DNA from: Pirellulales bacterium
Lineage (GTDB): Bacteria > Planctomycetota > Planctomycetia > Pirellulales > Thermoguttaceae
Length of the DNA stretch: 64,000 bases
Assembly: GCA_016935315.1 (NCBI GenBank)
Contig: JAFGRD010000019.1
Location: 1-64,000, forward strand
Reading direction: 5' to 3'
The notes beneath the pieces were generated by a model. It did not search any database, was not told where the DNA came from, and was given only the letters and a program-made list of their open reading frames with translations. The position numbers and the translations under genes are program-made. Positions 529 to 42,820 of the stretch are shown here, one piece after another. Every line of letters starts with the position of its first letter. Position 1 is the first letter of the stretch.

Positions 529-1065
529 CTTGCAATGTCCTCCCGGGAAAAACCCGACCTGAGTGGGAAAAAAGTGGTTCCATGGCCTGCCCGGCTGCCT
601 GCGACTAAGCTGGGCGGCACCGTTCGATAAGGATATCGGAGGGCAAAGTTTGAGATCATTAGGCAATTGAAGCACTCTCGATAAGATGGCGAGGTTTAGG
701 GCTTTAAGTGGATGCCGGGCCTGAGATGATCTGGTTAAGTTTACGGGAGGCAATGCGAGTCTCTTGGTTCCGTCCGTACGCAACGCAACGGTTCTCAGCC
801 CCCCGAATGGAAAAACAGGGGCGATAGGAAGACTGTGCGGAACAGTCCGACGCAGCCCGATAACTCCTGAATTGACCAGGCAATTAACCTGATTCTCACA
901 TCGAGAGTACATGCCGCCATTCCCCGTCAATGTCCCACGCTACCTGCCTGACGCATTCGCCGAATCTCTCCCCTTTCTGCGGTCATTGGCGTTCAACGGT
1001 GTTGGCCGTCCGGGTATACTTGCCGCCAACGTGGCCCGCCCGACCCTGACCAGTCTTCAGAGCAG
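529..1065. other. Intergenic region between divergent genes
   Basis: This 537-base gap separates two divergent genes. It holds the leader of the left-edge acidic protein and a candidate promoter for the permease. It is more AT-rich than its surroundings around 640-900. No convincing ORF, tRNA or terminator was seen. The short ORFs inside it lack Shine-Dalgarno sites and recognisable products. Confidence 0.5.
992..1020 (+). promoter_or_regulatory. Candidate sigma70-type promoter of the permease gene
   Basis: TTCAAC (992-997), a 17-base spacer and TATACT (1015-1020). Predicted transcription would start about 40 bases before ATG 1066. The -10 is good and the -35 is weak. Confidence 0.4.
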
Positions 1066-2976
1066 ATGCTTCCCGACGCCTGGCATCCTTGGATCAGTCT
1101 GTTGGTCACTGCGGCCGTTTTTCTGGCGATGTGGCGTCGTGGCGGGCCGACCGACCTGCTGTTTCTGGGGGCGCTGGTCGTGGTGACGGTTTGCGGCGTG
1201 ATCACGCCCGACCAGGCCCTGGCCGGCTTTGCCAACCCGGCCGTGATAACCATCGGCTCCCTGTTCGTCGTGGCGGCCGGGCTCCGCTCGACCGGGGTCC
1301 TGGACCAAGTTGGCTACCGGCTGCTGGGCACCGCGCGCACGGCCACGGCGGCCTTGGTTCGGCTGACCTATGTCCTGGTGGGCGTCTCGGCGGTGGTCAA
1401 CAACACGCCGGTGGTAGCCATGTTCGTTCCCGTGGTGCTCGACTGGTGTCGCCGGCGGGGAATCTCTCCCTCGCGGTTGCTGATCCCGGTCAGCTATCTG
1501 GCCATTCTGGGCGGCACCTGCACGCTGGTCGGCACGAGCACCAACATCATCGGCCACGGATTGCTGACCGATGCGTACCAGGTGGAGGCGCAACACGCTC
1601 GCGAAGGCCGGCGGCGCTACTCGCCCGAGTTCCATGCGCAGTTGCGCGGCATGAAGTTCTGGGAAATCGGCCAGGTCGGGTTGCCGTGTGCCCTGATCGG
1701 CAGCGTGTATCTTCTCGTGCTGGGGCGGCGTTTTCTGCCCAACCGCACCGAGCTGATCGAGCAACTCGACGAGCGACGCCGCGAGTATCTGGTCGAGATG
1801 CTGGTCAAGCCCGAGTGCCGGCTGATCGGCAAGACCGTGGAAGAGGCCGGTCTGCGGCATCTGCGCGGGCTGTTTCTGGTCGAGATCAACCGGAGCGGAG
1901 AGGTGATCGCGCCGATCACTCCCAGCGACGTGATTCGCGACGGCGATCGGCTGGTGTTCACCGGCGTGGTCACCACGATCGTCGATTTGGAGAAGATACC
2001 CGGCCTGGTGCCGGCGGCCGACTTCACCTATGCGATTCATCCGCAGGAGCGGCAACAGCGGCACCTGGCCGAGGCCGTGCTGTCCCGGTCGTCGCCGCTG
2101 ATCGGTCGCACGGTTCGCGAGGCCGCGTTCCGGCAGCGATACAACGCGGCGGTGGTTGCGGTCCACCGCAGCGGGGAGCGGCTGCCCAGCAAGATCGGCG
2201 ATATCGAGCTGCAGGCGGGCGACACGTTGTTGCTGCAAACGCAGCGCGAGTTTACCACTCGCTATCGCCACAGCCGCGACTTCTACCTGGTCGCCAACGT
2301 GGAAGGTTCCCAGCCCAGGCGACACGATCGGGCGTGGTTGGCGCTGGCGCTTGTCGTTGCCTTGATCGTCTGGCTGGTGGCCGCCAGCATGCTCGACGAA
2401 GGCCTGGTTCCGTCGGGGCTGGTGTCGCCGGCGGTGGCCGCCATCACCATCGCCGGCCTGATGCTGGCCTGCCGGTGCCTCCGGCCCGACGAAGCCCGAT
2501 CGGAAATCGATCTGCAGGTGCTGGTGACCATCGCCGGGGCTTTGGGTTTGGGCGCCGCGCTGCGCGAAAGCGGGGCGGCCGAGAGGATTGCCGCGGCCCT
2601 GGTCGACGCGATCAGTACGTGTCCTCGCACCGTCTTTCCCTACCTCCTGTTGGCCACGATCTATGCGCTGACGGTGGTGTTTACCGAAACCATCTCCAAC
2701 AACGCGGTGGCGGCCATGCTGTTTCCCATCGCCGTGGCCACCGCCGCCGCCGCCGAACTCAACCCGCGGCCCTTCGTCATGGCCATCCTGCTGGCCGCTT
2801 CGCTCAGCTTCCTGACACCGATCGGCTACCAAACGAACTTGATGGTGATGGGGCCGGGCGGATATCAGCCGCGCGACTACCTGCGGGCTGGCTGGCCGCT
2901 GACGCTGCTGGCGGCGGCCACCGCCATGGTGCTGATCCCGATGTGGTGGCCGTTTGCCCTGCCCGCGCTGCCCTGA
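1066..2976 (+). CDS. SLC13-type anion permease with two RCK_C (TrkA-C) domains
   Basis: A 636-residue inner-membrane transporter of the divalent anion/Na+ symporter (SLC13, CitMHS-like) type. Hydrophobic helices fill residues ~8-225 and ~425-630. Between them lie two soluble TrkA-C/RCK_C modules, about residues 238-318 (IGKTVEEAGLR...GDRLVFTG) and 334-395 (IGRTVREAAFR...GDTLLLQT). The signature loop VNNTPVVAMFVP near residue 123 and the matching TISNNAVAAMLFPIA near residue 545 are the paired SNT/NNT-like anion and Na+ sites typical of the fold. The substrate (sulfate, dicarboxylate or other) cannot be told from sequence. It appears monocistronic, and the next gene starts 97 bases downstream. 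Confidence 0.88.
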   Translation: MLPDAWHPWISLLVTAAVFLAMWRRGGPTDLLFLGALVVVTVCGVITPDQALAGFANPAVITIGSLFVVAAGLRSTGVLDQVGYRLLGTARTATAALVRLTYVLVGVSAVVNNTPVVAMFVPVVLDWCRRRGISPSRLLIPVSYLAILGGTCTLVGTSTNIIGHGLLTDAYQVEAQHAREGRRRYSPEFHAQLRGMKFWEIGQVGLPCALIGSVYLLVLGRRFLPNRTELIEQLDERRREYLVEMLVKPECRLIGKTVEEAGLRHLRGLFLVEINRSGEVIAPITPSDVIRDGDRLVFTGVVTTIVDLEKIPGLVPAADFTYAIHPQERQQRHLAEAVLSRSSPLIGRTVREAAFRQRYNAAVVAVHRSGERLPSKIGDIELQAGDTLLLQTQREFTTRYRHSRDFYLVANVEGSQPRRHDRAWLALALVVALIVWLVAASMLDEGLVPSGLVSPAVAAITIAGLMLACRCLRPDEARSEIDLQVLVTIAGALGLGAALRESGAAERIAAALVDAISTCPRTVFPYLLLATIYALTVVFTETISNNAVAAMLFPIAVATAAAAELNPRPFVMAILLAASLSFLTPIGYQTNLMVMGPGGYQPRDYLRAGWPLTLLAAATAMVLIPMWWPFALPALP

Positions 2977-3073
2977 CCTCGCCCGATCGACCTCGATCGC
3001 GTATCATTGCGTAAAGAGTCCAGCTTGGAGCCCGATCCCCGAATCTGATCCCCCTGGAAGAAGGATCGCCGCG

Positions 3074-4267
3074 ATGAGAAAAGCGTTTCTCCTCTGTACC
3101 GTATCGGCCCTACTGGGTGCCCTGTTGGCCATCGCGCTGTACGACCCGCCCGATAGCGAGCAGAGTTCGGTCGCCCAGGAGGCGGGCAATCCGGAAGCGC
3201 CCGTCGTCATACGCCTGGGTGCCCCGGGCGGCTCGCCGGAGGCGGCCCGACCCTTGACCGCCGAGGAGCTGACGCCGGAAGAGCGCGTCAACGTGGCCGT
3301 CTACGAGGGCGCCAACCGCAGCGCGGTCAACATCAACACGCGGAGCATTCAGACCGATCCCTTCATGATGTTCGAGCGGACCGCCGAGGGCGAAGGAAGC
3401 GGAACGGTGGTCGACGAACAGGGCCACATCCTCACGAATTTCCACGTCGTCGACGGCGCCCGCGAAATCCAGGTCACCCTGTTCGACGGCAGCCGCTACC
3501 GGAGCTACGATGCCCAGCTTGTGGGCGGCGACCCGGGGACCGACGTGGCCGTGCTGAAAATCGAGGCCCCGCCCGAAGTGCTCTTTCCGGTCGTCTTCGG
3601 CAGCTCGACGGGGCTGAAGGTCGGCCAGCGGGTGTTCGCCATCGGCAACCCCTTCGGCCTGGAGCGGACGCTCTCGACCGGGATCATTTCGAGCTTGAAC
3701 CGCTCGCTGCCCGGCCGCCGCACGCAACGGAAGCTGAAGTCGATCATTCAGATCGACGCCGCTATCAACCCGGGCAACTCGGGCGGCCCGTTGCTGGACA
3801 GCCGTGGCCGGATGATCGGCATGAACACGGCGATTGCCAGCAAAACGGGCGAAAGCGCCGGCGTGGGCTTCGCCATCCCCGTGAACACGATCGCACGGAT
3901 CGTGCCCCAACTGATCGAGCACGGGCACGTGATTCGTCCCGATATCGGAATCGAGCGGGTCGTCGAGATGGACCGCGGGCTGTTGATCGGCACGTTGACC
4001 CCCGGCGGGCCGGCGGAGCAGGCCGGGCTGCAAGGCCTCCAAGTCATCCGCCGCCGGGTCCGCCAAGGGATGTTCGTCTACGAGAAACGCTCGCTCGACT
4101 GGGCGGCGGCCGACGTGATCGTGGCGGTCGACGGCGTCCGCGTGCGCACGGTCGACGATCTGCTGACGGTCATCGAGGAGAAGCAGCCCGGCCAGGAAGT
4201 CGCGGTGACCGTCCTCCGCGACAACCAGCAGCGCCAGGTGGGCGTGAAGCTGGTCGCCGGCGAGTAG
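3074..4267 (+). CDS. S1C (HtrA/Deg-like) serine protease with C-terminal PDZ domain
   Basis: A 397-residue envelope protease. An N-terminal hydrophobic segment (residues ~4-22) is a signal peptide or anchor. The trypsin-like domain has the triad His124 (NFHVVDG), Asp157 (GTDVAVL) and Ser236 (NPGNSGGPL). A PDZ domain follows from about residue 290 to the end (GGPAEQAGL ... VIVAVDGVRV). I chose ATG 3074, preceded by GAAGAAGGA, over an in-frame start at 2954 that overlaps the permease gene and gives no signal peptide. The expected role is degradation or chaperoning of misfolded periplasmic proteins. It carries one PDZ domain, unlike DegP, which has two, so DegS/HhoA-like is a closer comparison. 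Confidence 0.9.
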   Translation: MRKAFLLCTVSALLGALLAIALYDPPDSEQSSVAQEAGNPEAPVVIRLGAPGGSPEAARPLTAEELTPEERVNVAVYEGANRSAVNINTRSIQTDPFMMFERTAEGEGSGTVVDEQGHILTNFHVVDGAREIQVTLFDGSRYRSYDAQLVGGDPGTDVAVLKIEAPPEVLFPVVFGSSTGLKVGQRVFAIGNPFGLERTLSTGIISSLNRSLPGRRTQRKLKSIIQIDAAINPGNSGGPLLDSRGRMIGMNTAIASKTGESAGVGFAIPVNTIARIVPQLIEHGHVIRPDIGIERVVEMDRGLLIGTLTPGGPAEQAGLQGLQVIRRRVRQGMFVYEKRSLDWAAADVIVAVDGVRVRTVDDLLTVIEEKQPGQEVAVTVLRDNQQRQVGVKLVAGE

Positions 4268-5417: not shown

Positions 5418-6536
5418 CTAGTAGTCGTACCAGAGCCCCAGCCCGAGAAGCTCTTCGTGCGTCCGGAAGAACTGGTACTGATCGCTCATGCCGTTGAAGT
5501 AGTGCATGCCGAACCGCAGCAGGTCGCCGCTATGGCCTCGCCACTGGACGCCGGTCTCCACGGTGAAGTTGCCGCCGTAGTCGAGTTCCTCGCGGATGCG
5601 GCCGTTGAAGGCCACGAACGGGGCCGGGGCACCGCCCAGCGGCTCGGCCGGGCTGTAGTCGACGCCGAACTGGAACTCCCAGGGGCGGCTGCCCCCGTCG
5701 GTGTGAAAGGCCCAGCCTGCCTCGCTGTACAGCCGCACGTCCGGCACCGGCCGCAGGGCCACGCCGAGAGCGAAGGCGTCGCGTACGTAGTTGATCCGGG
5801 TGGCCGCGGGATAGCGGACCATGTACTCATCGCCCAGATGCGAGCTGAGGTGATAGTACGCCAGCTTGCCCTCCCAACGGCCCTCGCGGACGGTCAAGGG
5901 AACGCCCACGCGATAGTCGGCGGAAACCAGGTCGTGGCCGTGCTCAAAGTCCAATCGCGGGAAGGCGGCTCCCTCGAGGTCCAACTGCCAGCCCTCCGGA
6001 TAGGCGATCTCACCGTTGCCGTATCGCAACAGCCCGACGCGCCCGCCCAAGGCGATGTCCCACAGCCAGCCGAGTTCCCGCTCGTAGACCGTTTTGCTGG
6101 CCAGCCGCGATTCCCTGCCCCCGGCCAGGTACGATTTGTACAACAGCCCCTCCGGCAAGACGTGCCAACTCCAGCACTCGCCCGACGGAAACGGCTGTCC
6201 CACGCCGACCATGCTTTGACCCGGTGGCTGGGGGAGGAACCCAGTAGCATCTTGGGCCGGGGGCGGGTTCCAGGGGAGGCCGCCTGCGGGCAGTTGTTCG
6301 TACTGGGTCGGCTGCTGGTGCTGGGTCGGCTGCTGGTACTGGGTCGGCACGACACTGGTCGGCAGGCCGGGGCCGTAGTACCGAACGCTCGCAGTGTCGT
6401 AATTTGGTGACAGTCCGTCGGCGGTCGCCACGATCGGAGGCATGGCCCGGATTTGGGCCGCGGCCGGCGAGGCCCACCCGAACAACAGCAGCCACGCCAA
6501 GAGGGCCGACAGAGACAGACGATTGCGACCAGTCAT
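5418..6536 (-). CDS. DUF1207-like secreted protein (planctomycete type)
   Basis: A 372-residue exported protein. The signal peptide spans residues ~1-28 (LSALLAWLLLFGWASPAAA). A short Gln/Pro region follows with a repeated QQPTQ unit (DNA near 6300-6350, three near-identical 18-base copies). The main domain contains LPEGLLYKSYLAGGRESR and many alternating hydrophobic and aromatic strands, and it ends in the terminal aromatic LGLGLWYDY, as in outer-membrane beta-barrels. I recognise it as probably the DUF1207 family. ATG 6536 was chosen because it gives a clean signal peptide; an upstream start adds 13 basic residues. It is probably an outer-membrane barrel of unknown function. Confidence 0.65.
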   Translation of the reverse strand: MTGRNRLSLSALLAWLLLFGWASPAAAQIRAMPPIVATADGLSPNYDTASVRYYGPGLPTSVVPTQYQQPTQHQQPTQYEQLPAGGLPWNPPPAQDATGFLPQPPGQSMVGVGQPFPSGECWSWHVLPEGLLYKSYLAGGRESRLASKTVYERELGWLWDIALGGRVGLLRYGNGEIAYPEGWQLDLEGAAFPRLDFEHGHDLVSADYRVGVPLTVREGRWEGKLAYYHLSSHLGDEYMVRYPAATRINYVRDAFALGVALRPVPDVRLYSEAGWAFHTDGGSRPWEFQFGVDYSPAEPLGGAPAPFVAFNGRIREELDYGGNFTVETGVQWRGHSGDLLRFGMHYFNGMSDQYQFFRTHEELLGLGLWYDY

Positions 6537-16095: not shown

Positions 16096-16251
16096 CCCCA
16101 CCTTTGCGGAACGCTTCTACCCAGAATGGCATTCCGGCACCGCGCGTGCCTGCATTGACGGCTGCGCGCTGATCATCGGGCACGGTTAACGTGCGTTCCA
16201 GGCGTGCCACAATGGGGCGGTGCCCAATTCCACAGGGGGGAGGCAGCCCTC

Positions 16252-16920
16252 TTGACCACCGCGCCCGTCATCTCGTTTCAGCAAGTCACCAAGCGGTTTC
16301 CTGGGGTGATTGCCCTACAAACGGTGTCGATCGACGTGGCCCCGGGCGAGTTGCACGCCGTGGTCGGCGAAAACGGCGCCGGCAAGAGCACGCTGATGAA
16401 GTGTCTCTGCGGCGTGATTACCGACTACGAGGGGACGCTGCGGGTGCGCGGCAAGCCGGTGCGCTTTCGCGGCACCACCGACGCCGAGCGGGACGGCATC
16501 GGCATCATCCACCAGGAGCTCAACCTGGTCGAGGGGCTGTCGGCGGCCGCCAACATCTTCCTGGGGCGAGAGAAGACCAACCGGCTGGGACTGTTGAACG
16601 ACCGGGCCATGGCCGCCGCCGCCGGCAAGCTGCTGACGCAGCTCGAGTGCGACGTCCGGCCGGGAGAGCCCGTGCGGGAGCTGCGCGTCGGCGACCAGCA
16701 GCTCGTGGAAATCGCCAAGGCCGAACTCTACCGGCTGATGGACAAGCTCTGCCCCGAGGGCCTGGGCATTCTCGTTACTTCCAGCGAGCTGCCGGAGCTG
16801 CTGACCCTTTGCGATCGGATCCTGGTGCTGTGCGAAGGACACACGACCGGGGAACTCCGTCGCGAAGAAGCGACCGAGCAGCGGATCATGGAACTGGCCA
16901 CGCAACGGCCAGGCGTTTGA
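16252..16920 (+). pseudogene. Internally deleted RbsA/MglA-type sugar ABC ATPase remnant
   Basis: The frame begins like a monosaccharide ABC importer ATPase: TKRFPGVIALQTVSIDV, Walker A GENGAGKSTLMK, Q-loop IIHQELNLVEGLSAAANIFL and the signature-like LRVGDQQLVEIAKAEL. It then jumps straight to the last ~60 residues of the family's second ATPase half (ILVTSSELPELLTLCDRILVLCEGH...). Normal members have about 500 residues with two ATPase halves; this has 222. Walker B, D-loop and H-loop of half 1 and most of half 2 are gone, without a frameshift. TTG 16252 follows GGGGGGAGG; ATG 16204 is an alternative. No permease or binding-protein gene is nearby. It is most likely a decaying gene; a retained truncated function cannot be excluded. 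Confidence 0.7.
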
Positions 16921-17007: not shown

Positions 17008-17817
17008 TCAGTCGTGGGATGCCCGCCAGCCGCCAAGGTCGGCCTGCTTCGAATGGGTCGTTCCGATGCGATGGACCGGCGGCGACGGAGGCGGCGGGGG
17101 GATCAGGCTGAAGTACGTCGCCTGGCGGATCGGACGCGCCGTGGTGTTCATGTTCGGATCGAACAGCCGCGGCGCCGTGGGCAGTGAATTCGAGTTGGCG
17201 CTGGGGATCGGCTTGAGCCGTTCCTCGGTGTCGGGCTGGGCTTCCGCCCCGGGTTGCGGCTCCTCAAACGTTTTCGCAGGGGGCGCGCCGTCCAGGCTCG
17301 GCACGGAGGTCGGCGCTTCCCCAGACGGCAGCGGCACGCTCTCGATCGGAGCACAGCCGCACGCGGACGGAACCGAATAGGTCGCGGCCGAGCAACCTCC
17401 GGCAGTCGTCCCACACGGTCCGCACGGCGTGCAAGCGGCATACGGGTTCGAATAGACCAGCCGATAGGTCGTGTAGGGAATCAATCGCGTCTGTTGGGTC
17501 CACGTCGTGATGGGGCGATAGGTGACGACCCGCGAACCGCTGCAAGGATCGCAACTCGTGATCGCCCTACAGGTCGTGACCGGGACTGTCTGGCAGACGC
17601 TCCGGTAGCACGTTTGGGGCACGTAGCTGCACGTCTGCGCCACGGGCGCCGGAGAATACGCCGGTGCGTAGGACGCGGCGTAGGGCGTTGCACACCTTCC
17701 GCCGCACCACCCGAACAGGCAGCCGAGACAGTCCAGAGCGCGACTCTCTGCCGGCACTGCCAGCAGCATTGCCGCCACGCCGCACATTATCATACACCGA
17801 GTCTTCAAGCGGGTCAT
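17008..17817 (-). CDS. Cys- and Pro-rich secreted protein, unknown function
   Basis: A 269-residue protein. The signal peptide covers residues ~1-28 (CMIMCGVAAMLLAVPAESRA). The mature N-terminal half is rich in Cys, Tyr, Thr and Pro, with repeated SYAPAYSPAP, TCYRSVCQTVPVTTC and CTPCGPCG patterns. The C-terminal half is Pro/Ala-rich and ends with a PPPPPSPPV run. No enzyme domain was recognised. Similar Cys/Tyr-rich secreted proteins are known from planctomycete genomes and may be structural envelope proteins; that is inference. Confidence 0.7.
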   Translation of the reverse strand: MTRLKTRCMIMCGVAAMLLAVPAESRALDCLGCLFGWCGGRCATPYAASYAPAYSPAPVAQTCSYVPQTCYRSVCQTVPVTTCRAITSCDPCSGSRVVTYRPITTWTQQTRLIPYTTYRLVYSNPYAACTPCGPCGTTAGGCSAATYSVPSACGCAPIESVPLPSGEAPTSVPSLDGAPPAKTFEEPQPGAEAQPDTEERLKPIPSANSNSLPTAPRLFDPNMNTTARPIRQATYFSLIPPPPPSPPVHRIGTTHSKQADLGGWRASHD

Positions 17818-18113: not shown

Positions 18114-18731
18114 TCAAGCCGACCCGCCACGCCGGCGCTGTTCGTACAAGTCATACAGATCGAACAGCAACTCGCGCAGATCCGGGCCATGTCGCGAAAA
18201 CCGCTCGGCGACGTCTTCGGCCGAGATGTGCGACGGATAGCCGTCGGTCAGCCGCCCCACAATGTGCTGGGCCAGCGGAAGGCTCGCCCCAGTGCACACC
18301 AGCTCGGGCAGACCGACGCCGGTATGGGCCGTCACCACCAGTCCCAAACGGCGCCGCCGGCAGAATCGCTTGATGCGAAACCGGCTCAGCCGGCTGAGCT
18401 GCTCGTAGCCGTCGATCACGATCACCGTCGAGCGATCCAGATCCGCCGCGTGTCTCGGCTCGAACGGCAAGCGGCGACAGCCGTCGTGAAGCTCGAAGAC
18501 CAGGGTGGGGCGTCCGGCGCGTTCGACCTCCGGCACCAGGGTGGCCAGCAAGGCCGACTTGCCCGAGCCGTGTGGCCCGACGATCTGCCCCCACCAGCCG
18601 CTGCGGTCCAGCCGATCGATCAGTCGCGCGGCACCGTCGCCGGCGACGAACAGAAAGGGCATCGCTCCGGGCCGGACCCGGCGGCTGCAGAAGGGATTCT
18701 CGGCCACCGTCGATTCGTCTCGCGCGTTCAC
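18114..18731 (-). CDS. P-loop ATPase, third gene of the DUF3592/arrestin operon
   Basis: A 205-residue protein with Walker A GPHGSGKSALLATL near residue 53, a Walker B-like STVIVIDGYEQL near residue 110 and a following GLVVTAHTG that resembles a sensor strand. The start GTG 18731 overlaps the stop of the upstream gene in a GTGA box, so translation is coupled. Frame upstream of GTG 18731 is only a shadow. It is probably a small AAA/ABC-type nucleotide-dependent regulator; a partner is suggested by the coupling to the membrane and arrestin-like proteins upstream. No specific family was recognised. Confidence 0.72.
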   Translation of the reverse strand: MNARDESTVAENPFCSRRVRPGAMPFLFVAGDGAARLIDRLDRSGWWGQIVGPHGSGKSALLATLVPEVERAGRPTLVFELHDGCRRLPFEPRHAADLDRSTVIVIDGYEQLSRLSRFRIKRFCRRRRLGLVVTAHTGVGLPELVCTGASLPLAQHIVGRLTDGYPSHISAEDVAERFSRHGPDLRELLFDLYDLYEQRRRGGSA

Positions 18732-19129
18732 GAGGCTGTGCCCTTGGTCGGCGGCACGTCGCCGAGCCGGAAGACCTTTTGGCCGACGATCTCTTTTCCA
18801 CGCTCGAGGAAAGCGCGTACGCGAACGCACCAGTGGAGTTTCACGATCGCGCCGTCGTAGCTTAGAGGGCTGGGGGGCAATACGGTGTGGAACCGTTGCG
18901 GCCGTTCCGGCCGGATCAACTCGCCGCTGTCGGCGTCGTTGCGCCAGAATTCGTGCACGGCGAAGTCCTCGTCGCCCTTGCCCTCGCTGTACCAGAGCAC
19001 GGAGACCTCGACGGCCTTGACCGCTTCGAACTCCGGCGACTCGAGCTGATACTCGCCCGAAAGCTCCTCGCCGGGAAAGTAGTCGCGGCCGTTGTCGTCG
19101 AACCGGATCGTGACCGTTGCGTCGTTCAC
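18728..19129 (-). CDS. Small arrestin-fold-like protein, second gene of the operon
   Basis: A 133-residue protein starting at GTG 19129, whose GTGA box overlaps the stop of the upstream membrane-protein gene by 4 bases. The segment DYFPGEELSGEYQLE resembles the arrestin N-terminal strand pair, and the alternating pattern VKAVEVSVLWYSEGKG ... FHTVLPPSPLSYDGAIVKLHWCVRVRAF fits an all-beta arrestin/Vps26-like sandwich. There is no signal peptide. The neighbour upstream also ends with arrestin-like strands, so the two may form a two-domain arrestin in trans. Assignment is by pattern only. Confidence 0.6.
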   Translation of the reverse strand: MNDATVTIRFDDNGRDYFPGEELSGEYQLESPEFEAVKAVEVSVLWYSEGKGDEDFAVHEFWRNDADSGELIRPERPQRFHTVLPPSPLSYDGAIVKLHWCVRVRAFLERGKEIVGQKVFRLGDVPPTKGTAS

Positions 19130-20424
19130 CGTGGGGCCCTCCCGTTGGGCGGGTGAACGATCACGAGAAAGGACCGCTTGTAGTCGGGCCAGCCGGCCAC
19201 TTCCCCTTCGACCACCACTTTCCAGTTGATTTCGTTGTGGTCTGACTTGAACGAGTGCATGGCCTGGGCGGGCACGGTCAGCTCGCACTCGGTTTCGAAC
19301 GGCAACCCGCGTTGCACGTCGAAGCCCTCGCGGCGGAGAATCTGCTGCCGGTGGACCTCGCGGGTTTCGGTTCGCGTGTCGGTTCCCTGGCGATAGGTGG
19401 CTTCCTCCTCGCAAACCAACAGCACTTCGAGCGAATGGAACGCCAGCCGGCCCGACTGGGAGATGAACAAACGGCAACAGTCGCCGGCGTGCAGCGGGTG
19501 ATCGGAAATCTCGACCAGCGTCGGTCCGATGCCGGTGGTGACCAGCAGTTGCCGGATGAACACGTAGACCAGCACGAATCCCACCAGCAGGAACGGGACA
19601 AGGAACAGCGTGAGCAGCCAGTCGGGCTCACCCGCCAGATAGTCGCCCACGGCCATGGCCACGAAGACCCCCACAATGCCGTTCCAGAACAGGCAAGCGA
19701 TCATGATGCCGAACAGGGCCCAGCCCGGCGACGTGCCGATGGGCAACCGGAACTTCAGCCGGGTGCCGGGGCTGTTGGTGATGTCGGCGTCGTCGGGAAC
19801 GTTGGGCAGTTTGCGGTTCGAGTCTCCGTTGGCGCCGAAGAGGTCGGTCTGCTGGACGCGCTGCGCCAGCACCTTGCGCCGCTCCGCCGATTTTCCCCAG
19901 TGCAGCGCGCGATAGAGAAAACCGCCACCCCCCAACGCGATGAACGACAACGGCACGATCATCACCAGCCAAATCCACGCGTTTCCTTCTCGGGACAGCA
20001 CGACCTTATGGGGATCGGCCGGATCGTACCAGCACGGATAGCGGCTGCCGGGAACGAAGCGATCCAGCGCCGCCTGTTGGTCGTCGCCACCGTTGTCGTA
20101 GACCGGCTGAACGTCATGGATCCACGTGCGGTACGTTTCCTTGCCGACCTGATACTCGACGTGAATGCCGGGCTGATGGGTCGTGCCGTCGTCGTCCTGC
20201 GTCGGTTCGGAGCGCTTGTGCAGGACGGTACACGTACCTTGCACGTACTCTTGCTGGACCTGCCATTGGGGAATCAGCAGGAAGAGGACGATGGCCACCA
20301 GCCCCGCGCAGCCGAGCAGCAGCAGCGAGGCGAAGAACAGCGCCTCGCCCACACTGGCCGCAGCCCGGGACCCGGTGCGCCGGTCTCCTCGTTTCTTTTC
20401 GTAGTAGCGGAAGTTGCGAGCCAA
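19126..20424 (-). CDS. DUF3592-like membrane protein with arrestin-like C-terminal part, first gene of the operon
   Basis: A 432-residue protein. Helix 1 is at residues ~30-54. A DUF3592-like periplasmic region (QEYVQGTCTVLHKRSE ... SRYPCWYDPADPHKVVL) precedes helix 2 at ~152-172. Two more helices lie near 238-260 and 270-295. The last ~135 residues (LVEISDHPLHAGDCCRLFISQSG ... GWPDYKRSFLVIVHPP) form a soluble beta-rich domain like an arrestin half. Start ATG 20424 has no strong Shine-Dalgarno site. Genes 2 and 3 follow with 4-base overlaps, so the three are one operon. The function is unknown. Confidence 0.72.
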   Translation of the reverse strand: MARNFRYYEKKRGDRRTGSRAAASVGEALFFASLLLLGCAGLVAIVLFLLIPQWQVQQEYVQGTCTVLHKRSEPTQDDDGTTHQPGIHVEYQVGKETYRTWIHDVQPVYDNGGDDQQAALDRFVPGSRYPCWYDPADPHKVVLSREGNAWIWLVMIVPLSFIALGGGGFLYRALHWGKSAERRKVLAQRVQQTDLFGANGDSNRKLPNVPDDADITNSPGTRLKFRLPIGTSPGWALFGIMIACLFWNGIVGVFVAMAVGDYLAGEPDWLLTLFLVPFLLVGFVLVYVFIRQLLVTTGIGPTLVEISDHPLHAGDCCRLFISQSGRLAFHSLEVLLVCEEEATYRQGTDTRTETREVHRQQILRREGFDVQRGLPFETECELTVPAQAMHSFKSDHNEINWKVVVEGEVAGWPDYKRSFLVIVHPPNGRAPR

Positions 20425-20544: not shown

Positions 20545-20847
20545 CTAACCGGAATGCAGGGCCGGTTGCCCTTGGCCGGCCATGGTGTCGCGTTTCGACT
20601 TGCGATAGAAACCGACTCCTTCCAGCGCCTTGTAGACCTCCTCTAGTGTCTTCTCGCCGAAGTTCGAGATTGCCAGCAGATCATCGCGGGTGCAGTGCAA
20701 CAGGTCGTTGACGGTGAAGATTCCTCTCTCCTCCAGGCAGTTCGTCGTGCGAACCGACAAGCCGATCTCGGCCGTGCTCATTTCCAGCTTCTCGGCCATA
20801 TCTTGCGCCTGCGTGTCGGCCCTCCTCAGCGGGATTCGGGTTCCCAT
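20545..20847 (-). CDS. Stand-alone RNA polymerase alpha C-terminal domain-like protein
   Basis: A 100-residue protein. Residues ~25-80 match the alpha-CTD helix-hairpin-helix fold: IGLSVRTTNCLEERGIFTVN, then DLLAISNFGEKTLEEVYKAL. The alpha-subunit N-terminal dimerisation domain is absent. ATG 20847 follows GGGAGGG at a good distance. An alpha-CTD binds UP-element DNA and activators, so a free copy could compete with or supplement the polymerase's own CTD. I believe similar stand-alone proteins are annotated in other planctomycetes. It is divergent from the helicase gene at 21170. Confidence 0.8.
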   Translation of the reverse strand: MGTRIPLRRADTQAQDMAEKLEMSTAEIGLSVRTTNCLEERGIFTVNDLLHCTRDDLLAISNFGEKTLEEVYKALEGVGFYRKSKRDTMAGQGQPALHSG

Positions 20848-29162: not shown

Positions 29163-32100
29163 TCACGAATTCTCGCCGATCAACAGTGCGTCGACTGCCT
29201 CGTCCGCCAGTTCGGTCCCCCTGGCCGATGATCTGGACTGCGAGAGTTGCTCGAACTCGAACAGTCGGGCCAATTCGTTCTCGAGGCCCCGCCAGCCCGC
29301 CGATTCCTGTTGCGACGCCGCCGCAAACACCACGTCGTGCGCGGACACCGTGGCTGTAAAAGCGTCGGCGGCCGCGAGCATTTCACCCCTGCCGGGCCCG
29401 ACCGTCGGCGAACCGACGATCCCCTTGGACGCCGCCATGGTGATGGTCTTTTCGCTCTGTTCTGTCTTGCTGCCGGGCACGCTGATCAACCTCAGGGCGT
29501 TGAGGAAGTGCGTCTGGTTGTTGCGGGCCAGGAGCATGTCGGTGGCGTTGACCCGCGCGTCGCGGTTGTAGTCGTAGGCAAAATCGACCGGTGCGGGGTT
29601 GAGGAAGGTTCGCGGGTTGTTGCGGGCCAACAGCATATCGGTCGCGTTGACTTTCGCGTCGGAGGTCGAGTTGCCCCCGTCGCCCACGGCATTGCCGAAG
29701 TAGAACACGTCGGGCTCGGCGAGGCCGGTCTGCTGGTTGGCGGCCACGGTCACCTGGAGCCACTGCTTCAGGACGCCGTAGTCGGCCCAGATGATCGTCA
29801 CGCGGTCGGAGCCGCCCGTGCCGGCGCCCGGACGCAACGTGATGCTCTGGGGGATCGGCGCCGGGACCCAACTGTCGGGATCGTTGCTGTTGCCGACGGC
29901 GAACTCGAAATCGGCCGCGGAGAGCGCGCCGCCCAGGGCGAGCACGTCGATCATGATTCCGTTGATACCGCGGCTGTAGCTGGTGTAGTTGGCAAACGTG
30001 GCCGTTTGGCCCGGCAAGAGGGCCTGCTTGTCGATGGCAATCGCGTCGTCGTCGTTCTCGTTGGGCCCGGCATGGTTGCCGTCCCAGACGGAATGGTTGT
30101 AGAAGACGTGCCGAGCCAGGATCCGCGCCGGCTCGTTGTCGCGGTTGACCACGGCCACGTCCTCCGGCTGCAAACCCGAATAGTTGAGGTCGTTGCTGAC
30201 CGCCGCGGCCGCAACGATCGTGTAGCCGACATGGCCGTCGCTGGCCGCGTCGTCCACGCCGGAGACGGTCACGGTCTGAGGCAGATTCCAGTCGTCGGGC
30301 GTAAAAGTCAGGCCGGCGGGAGAGACTGTTCCTTCGGTATCGTCGCTGGAGGAGAGCGCGACGGTCACGTTCTGCGTGGGGCGAGACTCGAGCACGACGG
30401 TGAACGAGGCCTCGCCGCCCGACTCCGTGGTGGTCAACCCGGAAGTCGGCGTAACCGTAATGCCGGCCGGATAAAGGACACGGCCCGTGTAGACGTACAG
30501 TCCGCCCGGGGCTCCGTCGTCGCCTCCGGGAAGCTCGGTCCATGCCCTGGCCGCCTGGCCCGCGTAGAGCCGGACCAGTCCGTCGGCGGCCCCGACCAGC
30601 AGGTCGGCGATTCCGTCGTCGTTGACGTCGCCGACGAACGGCCGCGAGCGGGCGTCGCCGGCCAGGTCAATCACCTCGCCCGTCGTCCGCAGCGGCTGGT
30701 AGCCGCCAAAGGCAGGCGCCGCGTCGGTACCGGTGTTGGCGTAGAAGAGCAAGCGGCCGTCCGTGGTGCCCAGCAGGAGGTCCTTGCGACCGTCGCCGTC
30801 CAGATCGGCCACGGTCACGCTGGAACGGCCGCTGGGGGCGACCAGTTCGCCGGTGCCGCTGGCCACGACGATTTCGCCGCGCAGATCGGCGGGGCCGGAC
30901 GCGGCCTGGTTGAGAAACACGCGGACCTTGCCGTCCATCGCGCCCAGCACCAGGTCGAATCGGCCGTCGTTGTTCCAATCGACCAGGTCCAGCGTTGCTC
31001 GACCGCCCACGTTGATGTCGACCTTGGCGCCGGGTTGGCCGACTTGCACGTTGACGGGCGTGCCGAATTGCGGGTCGGCGTTGGTGTTTTCGTTCAGCGC
31101 CACCTGGACGCGCCCGTCGGCCAGGCCGAGCACGAGGTCCTGCAGACCGTCCCGGTTGAAGTCGAAGACCCTGGGAAAGACGCCCAGGCATCCGGCGGCG
31201 GACACAACCAGGTCGGCGCCCTGGGACTGGGCGTATAGCGGTGCGCCGTAGACCGGAATCGACGCTGTGCCCGTGTTGAGGTAGACCCGCACCTTGCCGA
31301 CGCCGGCCGGGGTCTTCTCTCCGACCACCAAATCGAGCAGCCCGTCGGAGTTCCAATCGGCCAGCGACGGCACGGAGTACGTGCCCACGTCGATGTCCGC
31401 GCCTTCGGCCTGGAGATTCGGGCCGGGAGCGAACTCGGGGAACTCGAAGAAGACCAGACCGCTGGTCCCGCCCCGCAGGAGATTGCCCGCCGTATCGGTC
31501 AGGAGACTGCCGTCGAGTTGAAGTTGATAAACGTCGTCGGGCAGCGTTTCGGCGAAGCCGACGAGCGAGAGACTCAGCCGGCGTGCCGCGGCGTCATAGG
31601 AGAGCTGGTCGTTGGCCAGCGTCACCGGCCCCCCTTCCACGCTCACCAGCGAGACGGCCGAGAGGATCGATCCACCGTCGATCAGCGACTGGAGGTTGAC
31701 CGGCTCGGAGAAGAGCACGTCGATCGATTCGGGCAGGCCGTCCAACGCGCCGTAGACCACGGCCGCGTCGACGACCACCGGAGGCGTGACGTCGACGAAG
31801 ACGTCGAAGAAGCTGTCCGCATAGTTGCCCGCCGCGTCTAGCGCCCGCGCGCGAAGCCGATGGGTCCCGCTGGAGACCAGATTGACCGACCGCGAGAAAC
31901 CCGTGCCGGTCACCCCGGCAAGGCCCAGGTCGCGGCCTGCCGTCAAGTCGAACACTTCGACGGTCAAGCCCGATTCGGCCAGGTCGCCGGAGAGCGTCAC
32001 GGCCACCGTGTTGGTGCGGCCATCGTCCGCGGAAATGCCTGCATCGGGCGAGATCGCCAGATTGGTCGCCGGATCGGGTGCCACCGTGTCCATCGTCCAG

Positions 32101-35100
32101 CTTGCGGCCGCGGTTGCCTGGCCGTCGTTGCCGGCCAGGTCTTCAACGCCCGCGGCGTCCACCGTCAGCTCGTATGCTCCGTCCACGCTGGTCAACGCGG
32201 CCAGCCCCATGATACGGTACGTCTGGCCGTCGATCTGGTCGACCTGCACGGCCGACGTGATCCGGTTTGCCCCGCCATCGAGCGTCAGCAGCAGGTCGTT
32301 GAAATCGAACGTGTCGGAGTCGATCGCTTCGGAGAACTCGACGAGCAGCGCATCCTGCGGCACGTTGGTCGCGGGACCGTCGATGCCGTGGATCGCCGCG
32401 ACGGTCGGTCCGGTCGCGTCCATCGTCCAGGAGACCGTCCCCTCTCCGATTCCCGCGCCGCCCTGCGGATCCTGCACGCCGAACGCGTCGATCGTCAGAC
32501 GATAGCCCCCTTCGGCGGCCGTCAAGGCGGCAAGCGACTCAATCTGGAACGACAGCCCGGAGGTCTGCAGGAAGGTCAAGGCGGCGCCCGCATCGATCAG
32601 ATTCGGCCCACCGTCGAGCGTCAGCGAGAGGTCCTCGAAGCCGAACGTTCCCGGGTTGACTGCCTTGGTGAACGTGACGTCGATCGTCGTCACGGGCGCA
32701 TTGCGAAGCGGGGAAGGCACGCCGTCGATGGCCAGCACGCCGGGAACGTCACCCAGCTTCGTCCACGTCGCGGATTGCGAGCCCGTGCCCGCGTTGCCGA
32801 ATAGATCCAATACGCCACCGGCATGCACCACAAACGTGTACTGCCCGTCGCCGGCGGTCAATCCGGCCAGGCCGTTGACGCGATAGGTCGTTTCGTCGAG
32901 CTGCTCGACGGTCACACCGGAGCCCGCGTGGATCAGGTTGGCCCCGCCGCCGCGCGAGAGGCTCAGATCCTGCCAATCGAAGCTGGATTGGCCGATCGCC
33001 TCGCTGAAGGTCAGTTCCAGCGAATCGACCGGTTCGACCAGCACCAGCTCCGGCTCTTCCAGCTCGATCACCCGCGGCCCGATCTGGTCGCGCGGCTGGT
33101 AGAACAGCGTGTAGGCCTGGGTCCCGTCGCCGGCCGCGGCGTCGAACAGGTGCAGCTTGTTTTCGTCGATCGGCCGGTGGCTGGGGACGTCGAAGGTCCG
33201 GTCGGTCTGCCAGAAGTTCTCCAGCGGCAGCACGCCGCCGTCGGCCCGCTCGACGCGGACCAGCCGATAGTCTTCGCCGCCGGGGTCCGTCATCCGTGCA
33301 TAGTTCCAGCCTTCGGCCATTTCCAGCCAAAGCCCGACCACGAGGTCGTCGGGCGTGACGTCGCCGTCGTATCCTCTTCCGGCCACCACGCTGACCAGCT
33401 CGATGCTTCCGTCGGAGAGATAGAGCGTGTCGGGCAGGTCGTCCGGATCTTCGACGTCGTTGACCAGGAAGTCGGGCATGGTGGGTCCGCCGGCCGGATC
33501 GGCCCCCGCGTCGACCGCATGGATCAATTCGTGAATCTCCACGTTCTTGATCAGCGACAGCCGCGGATCGCCTAGCCCGTCGAGATGTTCAAAGGTGGCC
33601 TTGTACTCGACGAACTGGCCCTGCACCGTCGATTTCAAGAGCCACTCGGCGATCTTGATCTCGCCGGGGGCCACGTCGCCGAAGTCGGCGGTCAGCGAGG
33701 GCGTGAGGTTCTCGCCCGCCACCCGGGTGGCGATGATGTCGAAGTCGATCAACAGCCCCTTCTCATTTTCGATGATCTCGGGCTGGGCCGAGGTGATCGT
33801 CAGGTTCCTTGCCGCGCCGGCCCCGTGGTTCTGGACCATCACCGCCAGGGAGTAGGGCTGCGACGGCTCGACCTCGTCGGTCCAGGGATCGTCGGCGAAG
33901 ACGTCGCGCTGGTGGAAATAGATCAGGTCCAACGCGGCGTCGGGGCGGACCACAATCGGGATCGAGTCCAGCGGCACGTTCACCCAGAGACCGCCCTGCT
34001 GATAGCGCAGCAGCCCGCCGACCTTGTACTGCCGGGGCCCGTCGGGAGCGGCCTGGTCGGTGGGGACGATCAGCCACGAAGCGGAGCCGGTCTGCTCGGC
34101 GCCCAAGCTGCCCGTGCCGTCGACCGCGCCGAGGTTCTTCAGCGTCGGCACACCGATGCTGAACAAGTCATCGGCGATATTGTCGTCCTCATCCAGCACG
34201 TGGACCTCGACCAGGACCTCGGTGAGCGTGTCGGTTGGCGAGTTGTTGATCAGTTCCAAGCCGGCCTCGAAGGCGGAGCGGGTCATCACGGCTTCCTGGT
34301 CGATGCTCAGCCGCACCCGGGCACAGACGCCCTCCTTGCTGCCTGCCGGCGTGTTGGTCGTCGAAGTTCCCGCACCGCAGCCGCAATCGATCGGCGCCGC
34401 GGCACAAATCGGCCCGAAGTCGCCCAAGGCGGCCGGCACCGCCGGGAGGATCGCCGTCGGATCGTCGGAGTACTCCACCGTGGCCTGGGAGAAGACCGGA
34501 TCGAGCATGCCCAGCCTGGCGAACTCGGCTTGCAGCATCTCGTTGATCTGCTGCTGGAGGGTCTCCAAATCGAGCTCCCCTCCGCTTCCATCCTTGGCGG
34601 GATTGCAAACGTTGGCTGGCGGAATCAGGTATCTCTTGGTTTCGAACTCGGGGGTACCGGGGTTGTCGTAAGGGCTGTACTGGTACCCGAAAGCGCTAAC
34701 GTAGGCTTCCAGATAGACTCCGTCCGACTTCAAACACGTTCGCGAACCCGTGCTGGTCGAGTAGGTCTCGCTCACGGTGACGCTGCCGAAGAGGCCGCCC
34801 GAAATGCCCACCAGGTCGTACTCGGTAGGCAACAGGGGGCCTTCCTTCTTCGCACTGATCTTCCCTTGGATTCCCGCCCGGAAACCGACCGTGATCGAGC
34901 CGCTGGCCTCGATCCGCGGATCGCGGAAGTTGCAGCCGGTGGTCACCAGTCCCGTGATATTGCCCGAGATGTATGCCTCGAGCCCCACGAAGCCCGATCC
35001 GGAGAGCGAGATCGAGCCGCCGTCGGGCAAGGGAATTCCGCCCGAGCAATTGACTGAGAAGCCGGGCCCGACGCTCAGCTTGGTCTCGACGGTTCCGGAG

Positions 35101-38100
35101 CCGCGGATCTCGATCCCCGTTCCGAAGTCCGGGTCGCAGCAGATCTTGGCACCGCCTTCGGCCTCGACCTTCAGTTCGACCGAGGTCATTGTGCTGGCCA
35201 GGGCAGCGTTAATTGCCGCCTGGGCCGCCGCCACCGGCGGGCTGAGATAGGCGGAGAGGTCCTTCTTGCCCAGCCATCGTTCCTTGCATTCGCATTCGAC
35301 CTTGATGCCGCGCGCCCTCAGTTGGCCCCCGCCGCCGCCCGCAGCGTCCGGAGCCGTCCAGTTGCCGATAGAAATCAGACCGCCTTCACAGCCGTCGTCG
35401 GCGTTGGCCATGGTCACGTCGGCATCGCCATTGACTTGTCCCTCGCCGCAGGGATAGTTCCATTTCACCTTTCCGGAAATCGTGCACTGGCCGGAGGATT
35501 CCTTGGCTCCCGCGCCACCCTCTTCCAGCGAACTCGCCGATTTGTCGATCCGAGTAATCACCACGGGGATGGTCAGCGAGCTCTTGGCCGGCAGCAACCC
35601 GATGTCTTCGATCAACGCGCTGATTTCGTAGTCCGGATGGCTGCCGAACGTCAGCCGCGCGTTCTGGGCCGCGATCAACCCGTGATTGGTGATCGTGAAA
35701 TCCACCTGCATCGTCTGGCCCGGCTGCCGCATGTCGGCCAGGTCGACCAGGGGCGGATCGATCGTGACCACGGGGGCGGGCACGTTGGTCTCGAAGACCG
35801 TCTCGACGTTGATCCGGTAGCGGTCCTGGATCTCGGTCTCCTCGACCGTCCACACGTATTGCACCGTTTGGCGCGAGATGAAGACCAACTCGTGATTCAA
35901 CCGGCCGGCCTCGACCAGAATCAGCTCCTCGTACCGGTCGTGGCTGTCGGCGCGGACTTCCAGCGTGTAGTAGCCTTCCTGGAGTTGCGTCAGGCTGAAT
36001 CCGCCTTCGGCGTCAGTCAGGCCGCGGGCGATTTCGGCGCCGCTGATCGCGTCGCGAAGAATGACCGAGGCGTCTTCCACGCGCGGCGCTTCTTCGGTGA
36101 AATAGAAGTATTCGTCGACCACGGTGACCGCCAGGTCGCCTTGGGCGTCGGAGACGCACCGAAACGCGAACGGAACCGACAGCCCACCGTCGCCGGTCCG
36201 CAAGACCAGGTTCCCGGCGTACTCGTCCAGAGCCAGGTCGTCGGGCGGGGTCAACAGCAACGTGACCGTGGCCGACTGGCCGGGCAGCAGCGAAGCCATG
36301 GCCGACGGGGTGGCCAGCGAGAGCCAGGCAATCGAGGGCAGCTCCACCTGGATCTCGCCGGTGGGGGCCCCGCCTTCGTTGGTGACGTGGAACTCGACCG
36401 ACCGTTGCTCGCCGCGGAGCATGGCGGCCCGCAACGGCGCCGCGTCGGTCGTCAGCCGCGACCGCAGCTCCCTGACCGTCACGTCCACCGGCACGTCCAG
36501 GGAAGCCCCTTCGGCGGAGCTGACCCGCAGAATCACGGTGGCTTGCGCCACGGAGGCGTCGGCAGCCGTGATTTCATAGTCCAGCGGGAGCGTGCCCGAG
36601 CCCGTCAGCAGATCGCCGCCGGTGAGCGTGGCGGTCACTTCGAGGTTCGTCGGCGCGTCGATCACCTCGACCGTCAAGCCGGTCAGGGCGACGTCGGCCA
36701 GGTTGTGAAGCGTCACGCGGCCCGACTCCGCGACTCCCCCCACGACCGTCACCGCCGGCCGTGCCGGCTCCGCCCGCATGCCCAACAACAGGAAGTCGTC
36801 CTGCACCGGTGCCGTCGCCTCGCCGGGATGGGCGGCGCCGACGGTGTAGTGCCCACCTTCGCCAGGCAAGGGCGTGAACGTCGCCGAGAACTCGCCGAAC
36901 TGGTTGGTCAACGCGGCAATCATGCGACGCGTCCCGCGGACATTCAGGTGGATATTGACCAGTTCGAAGGCGGCGGGCAGACCGCTGTCGCTCTTGACGG
37001 CCGTCCCATACAGGGGGACCGGGCTGCCGGTGAAACTCACGTCCACGTCCGTCTGCACCGTGGCCGTATAGGCCGCCTCCACCTGCATCGGCTGGACAAT
37101 GATGCGGCTGTTGTTGCTCTCAACGCCTTCGACCACCATATTGTCCAGGTCGGTGGTCACCACCAGCCAATACGCGCCCGGCTCACGGGGCGCACGCAGC
37201 GACACGGTCCGTTCGAAGTACAACTCGACGGGCAACGTGCCGGTGAACTCGAAGGTGGCCAGCAGCATGTCGTTGCCGACAATCGGGTCGTCGGAGAGGA
37301 ACACCCGCTCCTGCCACGAGCCCGGGAAATCGCCGAGGGCATTGGAGGCCACGGCGGTGGCCAGCCCGTGGTTCGCCACCCGGTACGTCGCGTCGAAATA
37401 CGCCTCGGTGAGCACCGCCAAGGGCGCATCGAGATCCTCGACAACCAGGTCGGGCAGATCGATGTCCGAGACGATCAGCGCATCCGAGCCCGACGTGAAG
37501 CCGGCGACCGAAGCGGTGACGGCCACGGTCTGGTTGCCGTCGGCGATACCGTCCTCGACCGTGTCGGCGTCGAAGGTGTAGGAGCTTTGCCCGGCCGGAA
37601 TGGTGACCTGCGCCGGCACGGTCAGCTCGCCGACGTCGCTGGACAGCAGATCGACCGTCAGGGCGCCCGCCGTGTCCGTATTGCGCGATACGGTCACGGC
37701 CGTGGCGCCCACGCGCCCCTCGGCGACCAGGTCGCGGGCGATCACCACCGACAGCGTGGGGCCGTCGTTGTCGGCCACCTCGAGGTCGGCCGCGTCCCAG
37801 CCCGTCTCCAGCGGATAGCCCAGGTAGCAGGTCGGCCGGGCGGTGATCGTCACGGTCTGCGGCCCGTCGACCTCCGCGTCGTCGACCGCGGTGATCGCGA
37901 ACGTCGTCGAGTTCTGGCCGGCGGGGATTCTCACCTCGGCCGGAACGCGGGCCTCGCTGGTGTCGCTGCTGGTCAGCTTCACCACCAACTCGGCGGTCGT
38001 GACCGGGTCGCGCGTGACGGTCGCCGTGGCGGCCACGCCCGCGGCGCCTTCGCTAATCGAGCCGGTGCCAAGCACCAGCGTCAACTGAGGCCAGTCGTTG

Positions 38101-42725: not shown

Positions 42726-42820
42726 GGTTTCGGCCTGCAAGATCGGTTAGGACTCGTAAGAGAATAAGTCGGTCAGCGTGATCCCCGGTCAAGGGTGGAA
42801 CGCGTCGAAGCAAAGCGGTC

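Follow-up and report, generated by a model that had tools for sequence, protein, structure and literature searches.

Introduction

The arrestin fold is best known from the control of receptors in animals. The alpha- and beta-arrestins are eukaryotic, soluble proteins that carry an N-lobe and a C-lobe in one chain and have no ATPase subunit, and the classical two-lobe arrestins have a polar core between the lobes, a finger loop and a means of recognising receptor phosphates; Spo0M is soluble, with both lobes on one chain and no ATPase partner; and VPS35 and VPS29, the retromer partners of VPS26, are not AAA+ proteins. Here we analyse a three-gene operon (g1, g2 and g3) of a Pirellulales bacterium in which predicted arrestin-fold domains, one of them on a membrane protein, are encoded together with an AAA+ ATPase. 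The operon lies on the minus strand of the window, by which we mean the whole stretch of 64,000 nucleotides analysed, taken from a contig of 153,661 bases (JAFGRD010000019.1) of a 7.1 Mb genome.

The arrestin clan is Pfam CL0135, and in PMC2515105 its archaeal and bacterial members are the Spo0M family, described as little known by 2008; the same paper presents VPS26, of retromer and Commander, as an arrestin-fold adaptor at the cytoplasmic face of membranes within a multi-subunit complex. The Bacillus subtilis sporulation-control protein Spo0M (PDB 5cl2) is, like the proteins examined here, a bacterial member of the clan, and it superposes on the C-terminal domain of g1; unlike in Spo0M, the putative lobes are here spread over two genes, one of them for a membrane protein, with an AAA+ ATPase gene coupled to them. 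The best sequence and fold matches to g2, g1 and their single-chain relatives are the alpha-arrestins (TXNIP, ARRDC3) and the beta-arrestins, and VPS26 is among the top fold matches of the model of a natural g1-g2 fusion. The ORC/Cdc6 and RFC ATPases have their fold and their Walker and sensor positions in common with g3, whereas g3 has no winged helix or DNA-binding domain and, in its model, no helix after sensor 1, and its partners would be arrestin lobes. Free-standing DUF3592 proteins share that domain with g1, and one of them (locus L313) matches g1 over residues 34-428, but its genome (G117) has no match to g2 or g3 at E<=0.001. A search of the open-access literature, which misses most subscription journals, found no description of such an operon. 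Since the families themselves are known, we regard Spo0M-type arrestins, AAA+ ATPases and DUF3592 as known parts in an undescribed assembly.

Three overlapping genes

The original prediction described three genes that overlap by GTGA boxes, and these are present exactly as it stated. The order on the minus strand is g1-g2-g3, with a GTGA overlap at both junctions:

19126-20424, minus strand: g1, membrane protein of 432 amino acids; TTG start, with GGAGGA at 20436-20431
19126-19129, minus strand: GTGA box, stop of g1 and start of g2; GGGAGGG upstream at 19143-19137
18728-19129, minus strand: g2, 133 amino acids, GTG start; arrestin-fold domain
18728-18731, minus strand: GTGA box, stop of g2 and start of g3
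18114-18731, minus strand: g3, 205 amino acids, GTG start; single-domain AAA+ ATPase with a three-helix lid

The mechanical listing of open reading frames (ORFs) places the starts of g2 and g3 further upstream (giving 249 and 238 amino acids). Many homologues have a start codon aligned with the GTG starts of g2 and g3, frequently as a four-nucleotide overlap, the aligned position being extrapolated from the window's own start. For g1, the majority of homologues align from the first residues that follow the TTG start. By start codons chosen by script, on which these counts depend, an exact four-nucleotide overlap joins g1 to g2 in 27 of 47 loci, among which are the window and one fusion, and g2 to g3 in 15 of 41.

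g1 and g2 as probable lobes of a split arrestin

The first gene encodes four predicted membrane helices, with DUF3592 between helices 1 and 2 and an arrestin-fold domain at the C-terminus:

20269-20358, minus strand: transmembrane (TM) helix 1 of g1, residues 23-52; helix 20-58 in the fusion model
19984-20241, minus strand: DUF3592 domain of g1 (Pfam), residues 62-147, predicted exoplasmic
19909-19977, minus strand: TM helix 2 of g1, residues 150-172
19546-19719, minus strand: TM hairpin of g1 (TM3/TM4), residues 236-293, inside the match to single-chain arrestins
19153-19536, minus strand: arrestin-fold domain of g1, residues 297-424, matching the C-lobe of single-chain arrestins, predicted cytoplasmic

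DUF3592 (PF12158) is found in the window's g1 at E 6.1e-11 (43.3 bits, against a gathering cut-off of 25.3) and in 44 of 49 g1 rows (E<=0.01), which bears out the DUF3592-like membrane region of the original prediction. By the positive-inside rule, a positively charged flank is cytoplasmic. Across the family, the N-terminus before TM1 carries on average 7.1 K+R against 0.8 D+E (48 rows), the stretch 173-232 carries 7.8 against 5.3, and the DUF3592 region carries 13.0 against 15.1; this charge balance places the N-terminus and the stretch 173-232 inside and DUF3592 outside, and the C-terminal domain is therefore predicted to be cytoplasmic. The DUF3592 part is missing within one frame in 13 of 80 related loci, so the domain is dispensable.

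Two other resemblances of g1 were set aside. A search of PDB sequences with the g1 profile gave a splicing factor as its sole match (E 0.47), which we took as chance, and a likeness of TM1-DUF3592-TM2 to the beta subunits of BK channels (Z 9.2, but a root-mean-square deviation, rmsd, of 7.4; CaKB in 4 of 49 rows) was judged too weak. As separate observations, loci L311 (6603-8126) and L313 (5667-6947) carry a whole or partial g1-like layout in genomes with no strong g2 or g3, so that long DUF3592 proteins may commonly have a domain of the arrestin type. In the draft genomes of L208, L211 and L273, g1 is broken by a stop or a frame change, through sequencing error or decay.

The small sandwich that had been suggested for g2 holds up at the level of the family. 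Among 50 family members, Pfam gives Arrestin_N in 20 (best 8.9e-10), Arrestin_C in 16 and Vps26 in three at E<=0.1, and Spo0M (PF07070) in none of the 50 at the same threshold. Searched against all PDB sequences, the g2 profile returned 22 matches at E<=10, 21 of which belong to the arrestin superfamily (ARRDC3, TXNIP, VPS26, ARRD and beta-arrestins), with ARRDC3 (E 0.0029) the best and TXNIP at 0.011.

The link between g2 and the C-terminal half of g1 comes from single-chain proteins of about 345 residues, found in the search of the phylum, which consist of a g2-like domain followed by a TM hairpin and a g1-like C-terminal domain. Compared with Pfam at E<=0.001, nine such proteins match Arrestin_N in eight cases (best 4.1e-16), Arrestin_C in seven and Spo0M in five; in the protein of L219, Arrestin_C covers the C-lobe (residues 218-333, E 1.8e-11). 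A profile built from the nine proteins (A8) finds TXNIP at E 3.4e-10, and it finds the window in two pieces. Its positions 159-343 correspond to 19153-19701 in g1, that is, to the hairpin and the C-terminal domain (E 2.4e-23), and its positions 4-107 correspond to 18806-19120 in g2 (E 6e-9). Thus g2 matches the N-lobe, and the C-terminal half of g1 the hairpin and C-lobe. The locus of the L219 protein (838-3583, plus strand) also shows, 19 bases beyond the single-chain membrane arrestin, a gene for cation transport, TrkH (E 1.3e-47), which may point to a client.

Further support comes from fusions. The two genes are joined in one frame in L092 (genome G057) and in the distant L205 (G248, from another family); both are draft genomes, in which sequencing error is possible. 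One of the named records, QQVP01000011.1 (L250), appears to be the same contig as L092. In both fusions the C-lobe precedes the N-lobe, so that the classical one-chain layout, N then C, is not what they show.

The L092 fusion was modelled at a mean pLDDT of 82.9. Its helices lie at 20-58, 150-178, 235-264 and 270-300, DUF3592 forms a beta domain at 61-143, and there are two beta sandwiches, at 303-422 and at 453-570. Of these, the first can be superposed on the N-domain of TXNIP (Z 11.2, with an rmsd of 2.7 over 128 residues) as well as on Spo0M (Z 9.9, with an rmsd of 2.8 over 123 residues), in agreement with the arrestin fold that had been proposed for the C-terminal half of g1. In Foldseek, ARRD-6 and VPS26 lead the matches to the whole chain, with arrestin-fold matches across 296-573. 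The g2 part is less certain, with ten-residue pLDDT means of 63-88 over 451-570.

The alignment behind the model called for care. In three mixed alignments, A4 (99 rows), A5 (45) and A6 (53), MAFFT slid the arrestin domain of g1 wholly or partly onto that of g2, as judged from identities in A4 and from checked columns in A5 and A6, and these were rejected. The row set that was kept, chosen for its MAFFT alignment, had 45 of 45 g1 rows and six of six g2 rows correctly placed; its repeat (A7) was judged by identities alone. With so few g2 rows in the kept set, the g2 lobe of the model rests on seven sequences.

By the single-chain profile and by fold, g2 corresponds to an N-type and g1 to a C-type lobe of the arrestin clan. 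Taken together, these results indicate that g2 and the C-terminal domain of g1 are most likely the two lobes of one split, membrane-anchored arrestin, a pairing supported by the single-chain relatives and the fusions, and one in which the lobes would bind each other. The original prediction, which had seen arrestin-like parts in both proteins, was right in this respect, and what it treated as a half and a separate sandwich most likely belong together.

Conservation of the three genes as a unit

Conservation was followed in a set of 60 genomes, made up of the window's own and 59 relatives, and in a sample of 199 genomes of the phylum that includes the window's own. The genome searches score part of the first-look candidates, so weak matches may be missed, and all co-occurrence counts are raw, without a tree or a correction for phylogeny. 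Of the 60 genomes, 57 contain g1, 58 contain g2 and 56 contain g3, with all three in 55. The arrangement is not due to chance, because the genes are this frequent and the tight junctions recur.

Judged by the best hit per gene in the 55 genomes with the triad, 39 have g1-g2-g3 contiguous on one strand, six have only g1-g2 adjacent, five only g2-g3, and in five none are adjacent. G022, G036 and G041 each lack one gene of the set, and all three genes are missing from G010 (68% complete) and G032 (94% complete). G034 was counted as g2-g3, that copy being at a contig end, and has a separate, divergent contiguous triad (L111) on another contig; G037 has a second contiguous triad (L110), without DUF3592.

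A genome scan with g1, the one search that reached beyond Planctomycetota, gave 241 confirmed relatives. Among the best 80 of these, which we refer to as the named loci, g1, g2 and g3 stand in order in 69; the remaining 11 lack this arrangement, in some cases at a contig end. Most are titled Pirellulales, Planctomycetaceae or Planctomycetota, and they include Aeoliella straminimaris and Blastopirellula marina DSM 3645, the latter with the triad (L259); since many assemblies are shared, they are not independent of the 60-genome set. Several assemblies titled Candidatus Nealsonbacteria or Candidatus Kuenenia stuttgartiensis (L223; L268, L274, L276, L295, L299) carry a Pirellulales-type operon, and these titles look wrong.

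Over the 199 genomes of the phylum, the 18 with a strong g1 (E<=1e-40) are also the 18 with a strong g3 (E<=1e-30), and g2 occurs in all 18 and in nine others. The cut-offs were chosen post hoc from gaps in the lists of E-values: for g1 the weakest of the 18 stands at 1.8e-49 and the next genome at 6.1e-25, and for g3 the corresponding values are 2.7e-31 and 4.1e-6. The genes are contiguous in 15 of the 18, while three genomes of one genus (G083, G195, G251) keep g1-g2 and have g3 elsewhere. In families f21, f30, f36, f39 and f76 some members have the whole set and others lack a strong g1 or g3, a pattern that suggests that the genes are gained or lost together. The linkage check set out in the original prediction, namely whether g2 and g3 stay with the DUF3592-like gene across genomes, thus came out in its favour, with 39 contiguous cases among the 60 genomes and, among the 18, 15 contiguous and three with g3 unlinked. 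That g1, g2 and g3 form one functional unit is well supported.

g3 is an AAA+ ATPase

The motifs of g3 are strongly conserved among its 47 rows:

18690-18698, minus strand: NPF motif, residues 12-14, invariant in 47 of 47 rows
18555-18578, minus strand: Walker A, GPHGSGKS, residues 52-59; K58 in 46 of 47 rows
18411-18425, minus strand: Walker B strand, residues 103-107, followed by GYEQL; D107 in 47 of 47 rows, E110 in 45 of 47
18324-18332, minus strand: sensor-1 region, TAH, residues 134-136; H136 in 47 of 47 rows
18174-18176, minus strand: R186 in the lid, at the sensor-2 position, in 47 of 47 rows

Sensor 1 and sensor 2 are named here by position in the fold. The model of g3 (mean pLDDT 93.7) is a single domain with a three-helix lid and superposes on chain 7jgr_G of the Drosophila ORC-DNA-Cdc6 structure (Z 13.4, rmsd 3.4, 194 residues). 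The P-loop ATPase of the original prediction is therefore upheld, with the Walker A string shortened by its last residue (it had been given as GPHGSGKSA), and its class can be sharpened to AAA+, as g3 combines Walker A and B, sensor-1 and sensor-2 positions, the AAA+ fold and a helical lid. Matches of g3 to RecA and ABC proteins were taken as generic to the P-loop, and g3 was rejected as a DNA replication factor or clamp loader, since its 205 amino acids include no DNA-binding domain.

Related ATPases and other gene orders

A second gene order is seen with the single-chain arrestins. A related ATPase lies directly upstream of one in L300 (the ATPase ends at 5222, the arrestin runs from 5271) and in L303 (end at 5678, start at 5665); in L302 the end of a related ATPase, at the contig edge (8764-8985), is likewise directly upstream, with the arrestin gene from 8566 downwards. 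The ATPases of L300 and L303 are 56% identical, and that of L303 matches the g3 profile at E 3.1e-8. A profile of the two finds four of the 199 genomes, all of them among the seven whose single-chain arrestin is strong (E<=1e-100); in G177, the fourth of them, ATPase and arrestin are on different contigs.

Two side observations concern these loci. In L303 a protein-kinase gene precedes the ATPase-arrestin pair. A third arrangement is that of L308 (5597-7928, minus strand) and L309, in which a radical-SAM gene (a match tested in L308 only) overlaps the start of a gene for TM helices and a C-lobe, which in turn overlaps an N-lobe gene.

Proposed mechanism and alternatives

The domain identities, topology, conservation, co-occurrence and fusions described above rest on sequence or on prediction. 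On this basis we propose, as the most likely reading but with modest confidence, that the three proteins form a membrane complex with a split arrestin at its core, which works as an ATP-switched adaptor. In this proposal g1 would anchor the arrestin C-lobe at the cytoplasmic face of the membrane, and its dispensable outer DUF3592 domain could sense or bind something; g2 would contribute the N-lobe as a subunit of its own and dock on g1; and the nucleotide state of g3 would control how the lobes assemble or how firmly they hold a client membrane protein. Binding of lobe to lobe, the action of g3 on the lobes and the existence of a client are what we infer here. An arrestin of this kind would be an ATP-switched adaptor in the sorting, regulation or quality control of membrane proteins.

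Several results weigh against this proposal. At the level of Pfam, none of the 49 g1 rows has an arrestin domain, neither Arrestin_C nor Spo0M, at E<=0.01, and the window's own g2 has no Pfam domain at E<=1. A direct comparison of the g2 and g1 profiles was not significant (E 0.11). Superpositions that span both lobes have rmsd values of 12.6-19.8 A among the arrestin-clan rows listed, and the fusion model cannot show docking of the lobes, because its alignment rows are unpaired and the two-lobe rmsd is at least 12.6 A. The best hits are non-contiguous in 16 of the 55 triad genomes, some of these at contig ends; since the four-nucleotide overlaps are also incomplete across loci (see above), the fixed ratio of the proteins, which the original prediction held to be almost sure, does not follow from the overlaps.

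The tie to the ATPase is loosened by other observations. The L300 ATPase matches the g3 profile at E 0.0018, equal to an ORF of L312 that is not known as related. The related ATPase is missing (E<=1e-4) in three of the seven genomes with a single-chain arrestin, and in L308 and L309 the lobes are divided between two overlapping genes, with neighbours that, as far as seen, include no ATPase; the arrestin pair is therefore not always ATPase-dependent. In AAA+ proteins the trans arginine finger is on the helix that follows sensor 1. The model of g3 has no helix between the sensor-1 strand (130-135) and the next strand (143-146), and so the usual finger may be missing. A strong remodelling activity of g3 is thus not assured, and g3 could be either a strong remodeller or a slow switch.

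A signalling switch is possible but rather improbable in our judgement. Here a STAND-like g3 would read a signal that reaches it via g1 from the DUF3592 domain outside, and g2 would be a Spo0M-like regulator that is held or released, with gene regulation or kinase control as the output. It would fit with the weak Pfam matches of the g3 rows (AAA_16 in 24 of 47, NACHT in 11, nSTAND_NTPase5 in 10), with the g3 model, in which the helix between sensor 1 and the next strand is lacking, and with the kinase gene of L303. STAND and NACHT NTPases, however, are large and multidomain, with sensor repeats and an effector, whereas g3 is a single domain of 205 amino acids without sensor repeats or an effector domain and matches the P-loop models weakly. 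Spo0M is among the fold matches, and according to PMC2515105 it inhibits sporulation. Yet the g2 rows have no Spo0M match at the threshold used above, and no regulator is a constant neighbour among the genes checked.

Distribution and linkage bear on the remaining explanations. That the genes are near-universal in the window's order and spotty outside it would suit a structural or envelope role, in which the proteins form a membrane scaffold (for shape, budding or invaginations) and the ATPase merely aids its assembly; but two of the 60 genomes are without all three genes, one of them the 94% complete G032, and 181 of the 199 genomes of the phylum have no strong g1 or g3. The set is therefore not essential to the body plan, and we consider a scaffold unlikely. 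An ordinary operon of three functionally separate genes, kept by chance or general synteny, is very unlikely. The flanking alpha-CTD-like and UvrD ORFs do recur in 28 and 25 of the 63 other loci, as chance synteny would have it, but strong g1 and g3 co-occur over the 199 genomes even where g3 is unlinked, and a functional tie is also favoured by the g1-g2 fusions, the additional triads and the related ATPase in its different gene order. Least probable of all is an anti-phage defence system or another mobile accessory module. A small P-loop ATPase of the AAA/STAND kind such as g3 would be in keeping with one, but PADLOC gives no match to g1 or g2 and only a weak one of g3 to mad8 (E 0.0083, over the P-loop region), and the genes are near-universal in the order, in a partly conserved chromosomal setting.

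Genomic neighbourhood

The genes around the operon gave no functional clue, and outside the order the neighbours are unrelated genes (tRNA synthetase, anthranilate synthase, hydantoinase B, GDPD, permease). Within the window we noted the following:

20545-20847, minus strand: free-standing RNA polymerase alpha C-terminal domain protein, 100 amino acids (E 1.5e-19), just upstream of g1
17008-17787, minus strand: Cys-/Pro-rich protein, 259 amino acids, downstream of g3; no Pfam match at E<=0.001
16204-16920, plus strand: ABC-transporter ATPase, 238 amino acids (ABC_tran, E 2.2e-21)
29163-42740, minus strand: open frame of 4525 amino acids, very long for one gene

Since the alpha-CTD-like gene and UvrD recur upstream of the operon, the region is partly syntenic within the order; ORFs homologous to the Cys-/Pro-rich protein are found in 18 of the other 63 loci compared. 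By eye, the ABC ATPase resembles a sugar-type double ATPase whose beginning runs straight into its end, with the middle seemingly missing.

Implications

Planctomycetota have unusual membranes and divide by budding. Beyond the proposed complex, a wider and more tentative possibility, which we think doubtful, is that the operon represents an adaptor machine of the phylum, in which a dedicated AAA+ ATPase would assemble and release a split membrane arrestin that handles membrane proteins, with an extracytoplasmic sensor domain that can be omitted; such a machine would be a prokaryotic counterpart of arrestin- and retromer-type cargo adaptors in principle, not necessarily by descent. The natural variants (split lobes, C-N fusions, single-chain N-TM-C proteins, with or without DUF3592, with or without a nearby ATPase) make the roles of the parts separable by experiment. 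If the proposal is true, a conserved unit of a membrane arrestin and its dedicated ATPase would offer a mechanism for prokaryotic arrestins that can be tested. Should the operon prove to be just a regulatory module peculiar to these bacteria, it would still be a family not described before, carried by 55 of the 60 genomes sampled from the order.

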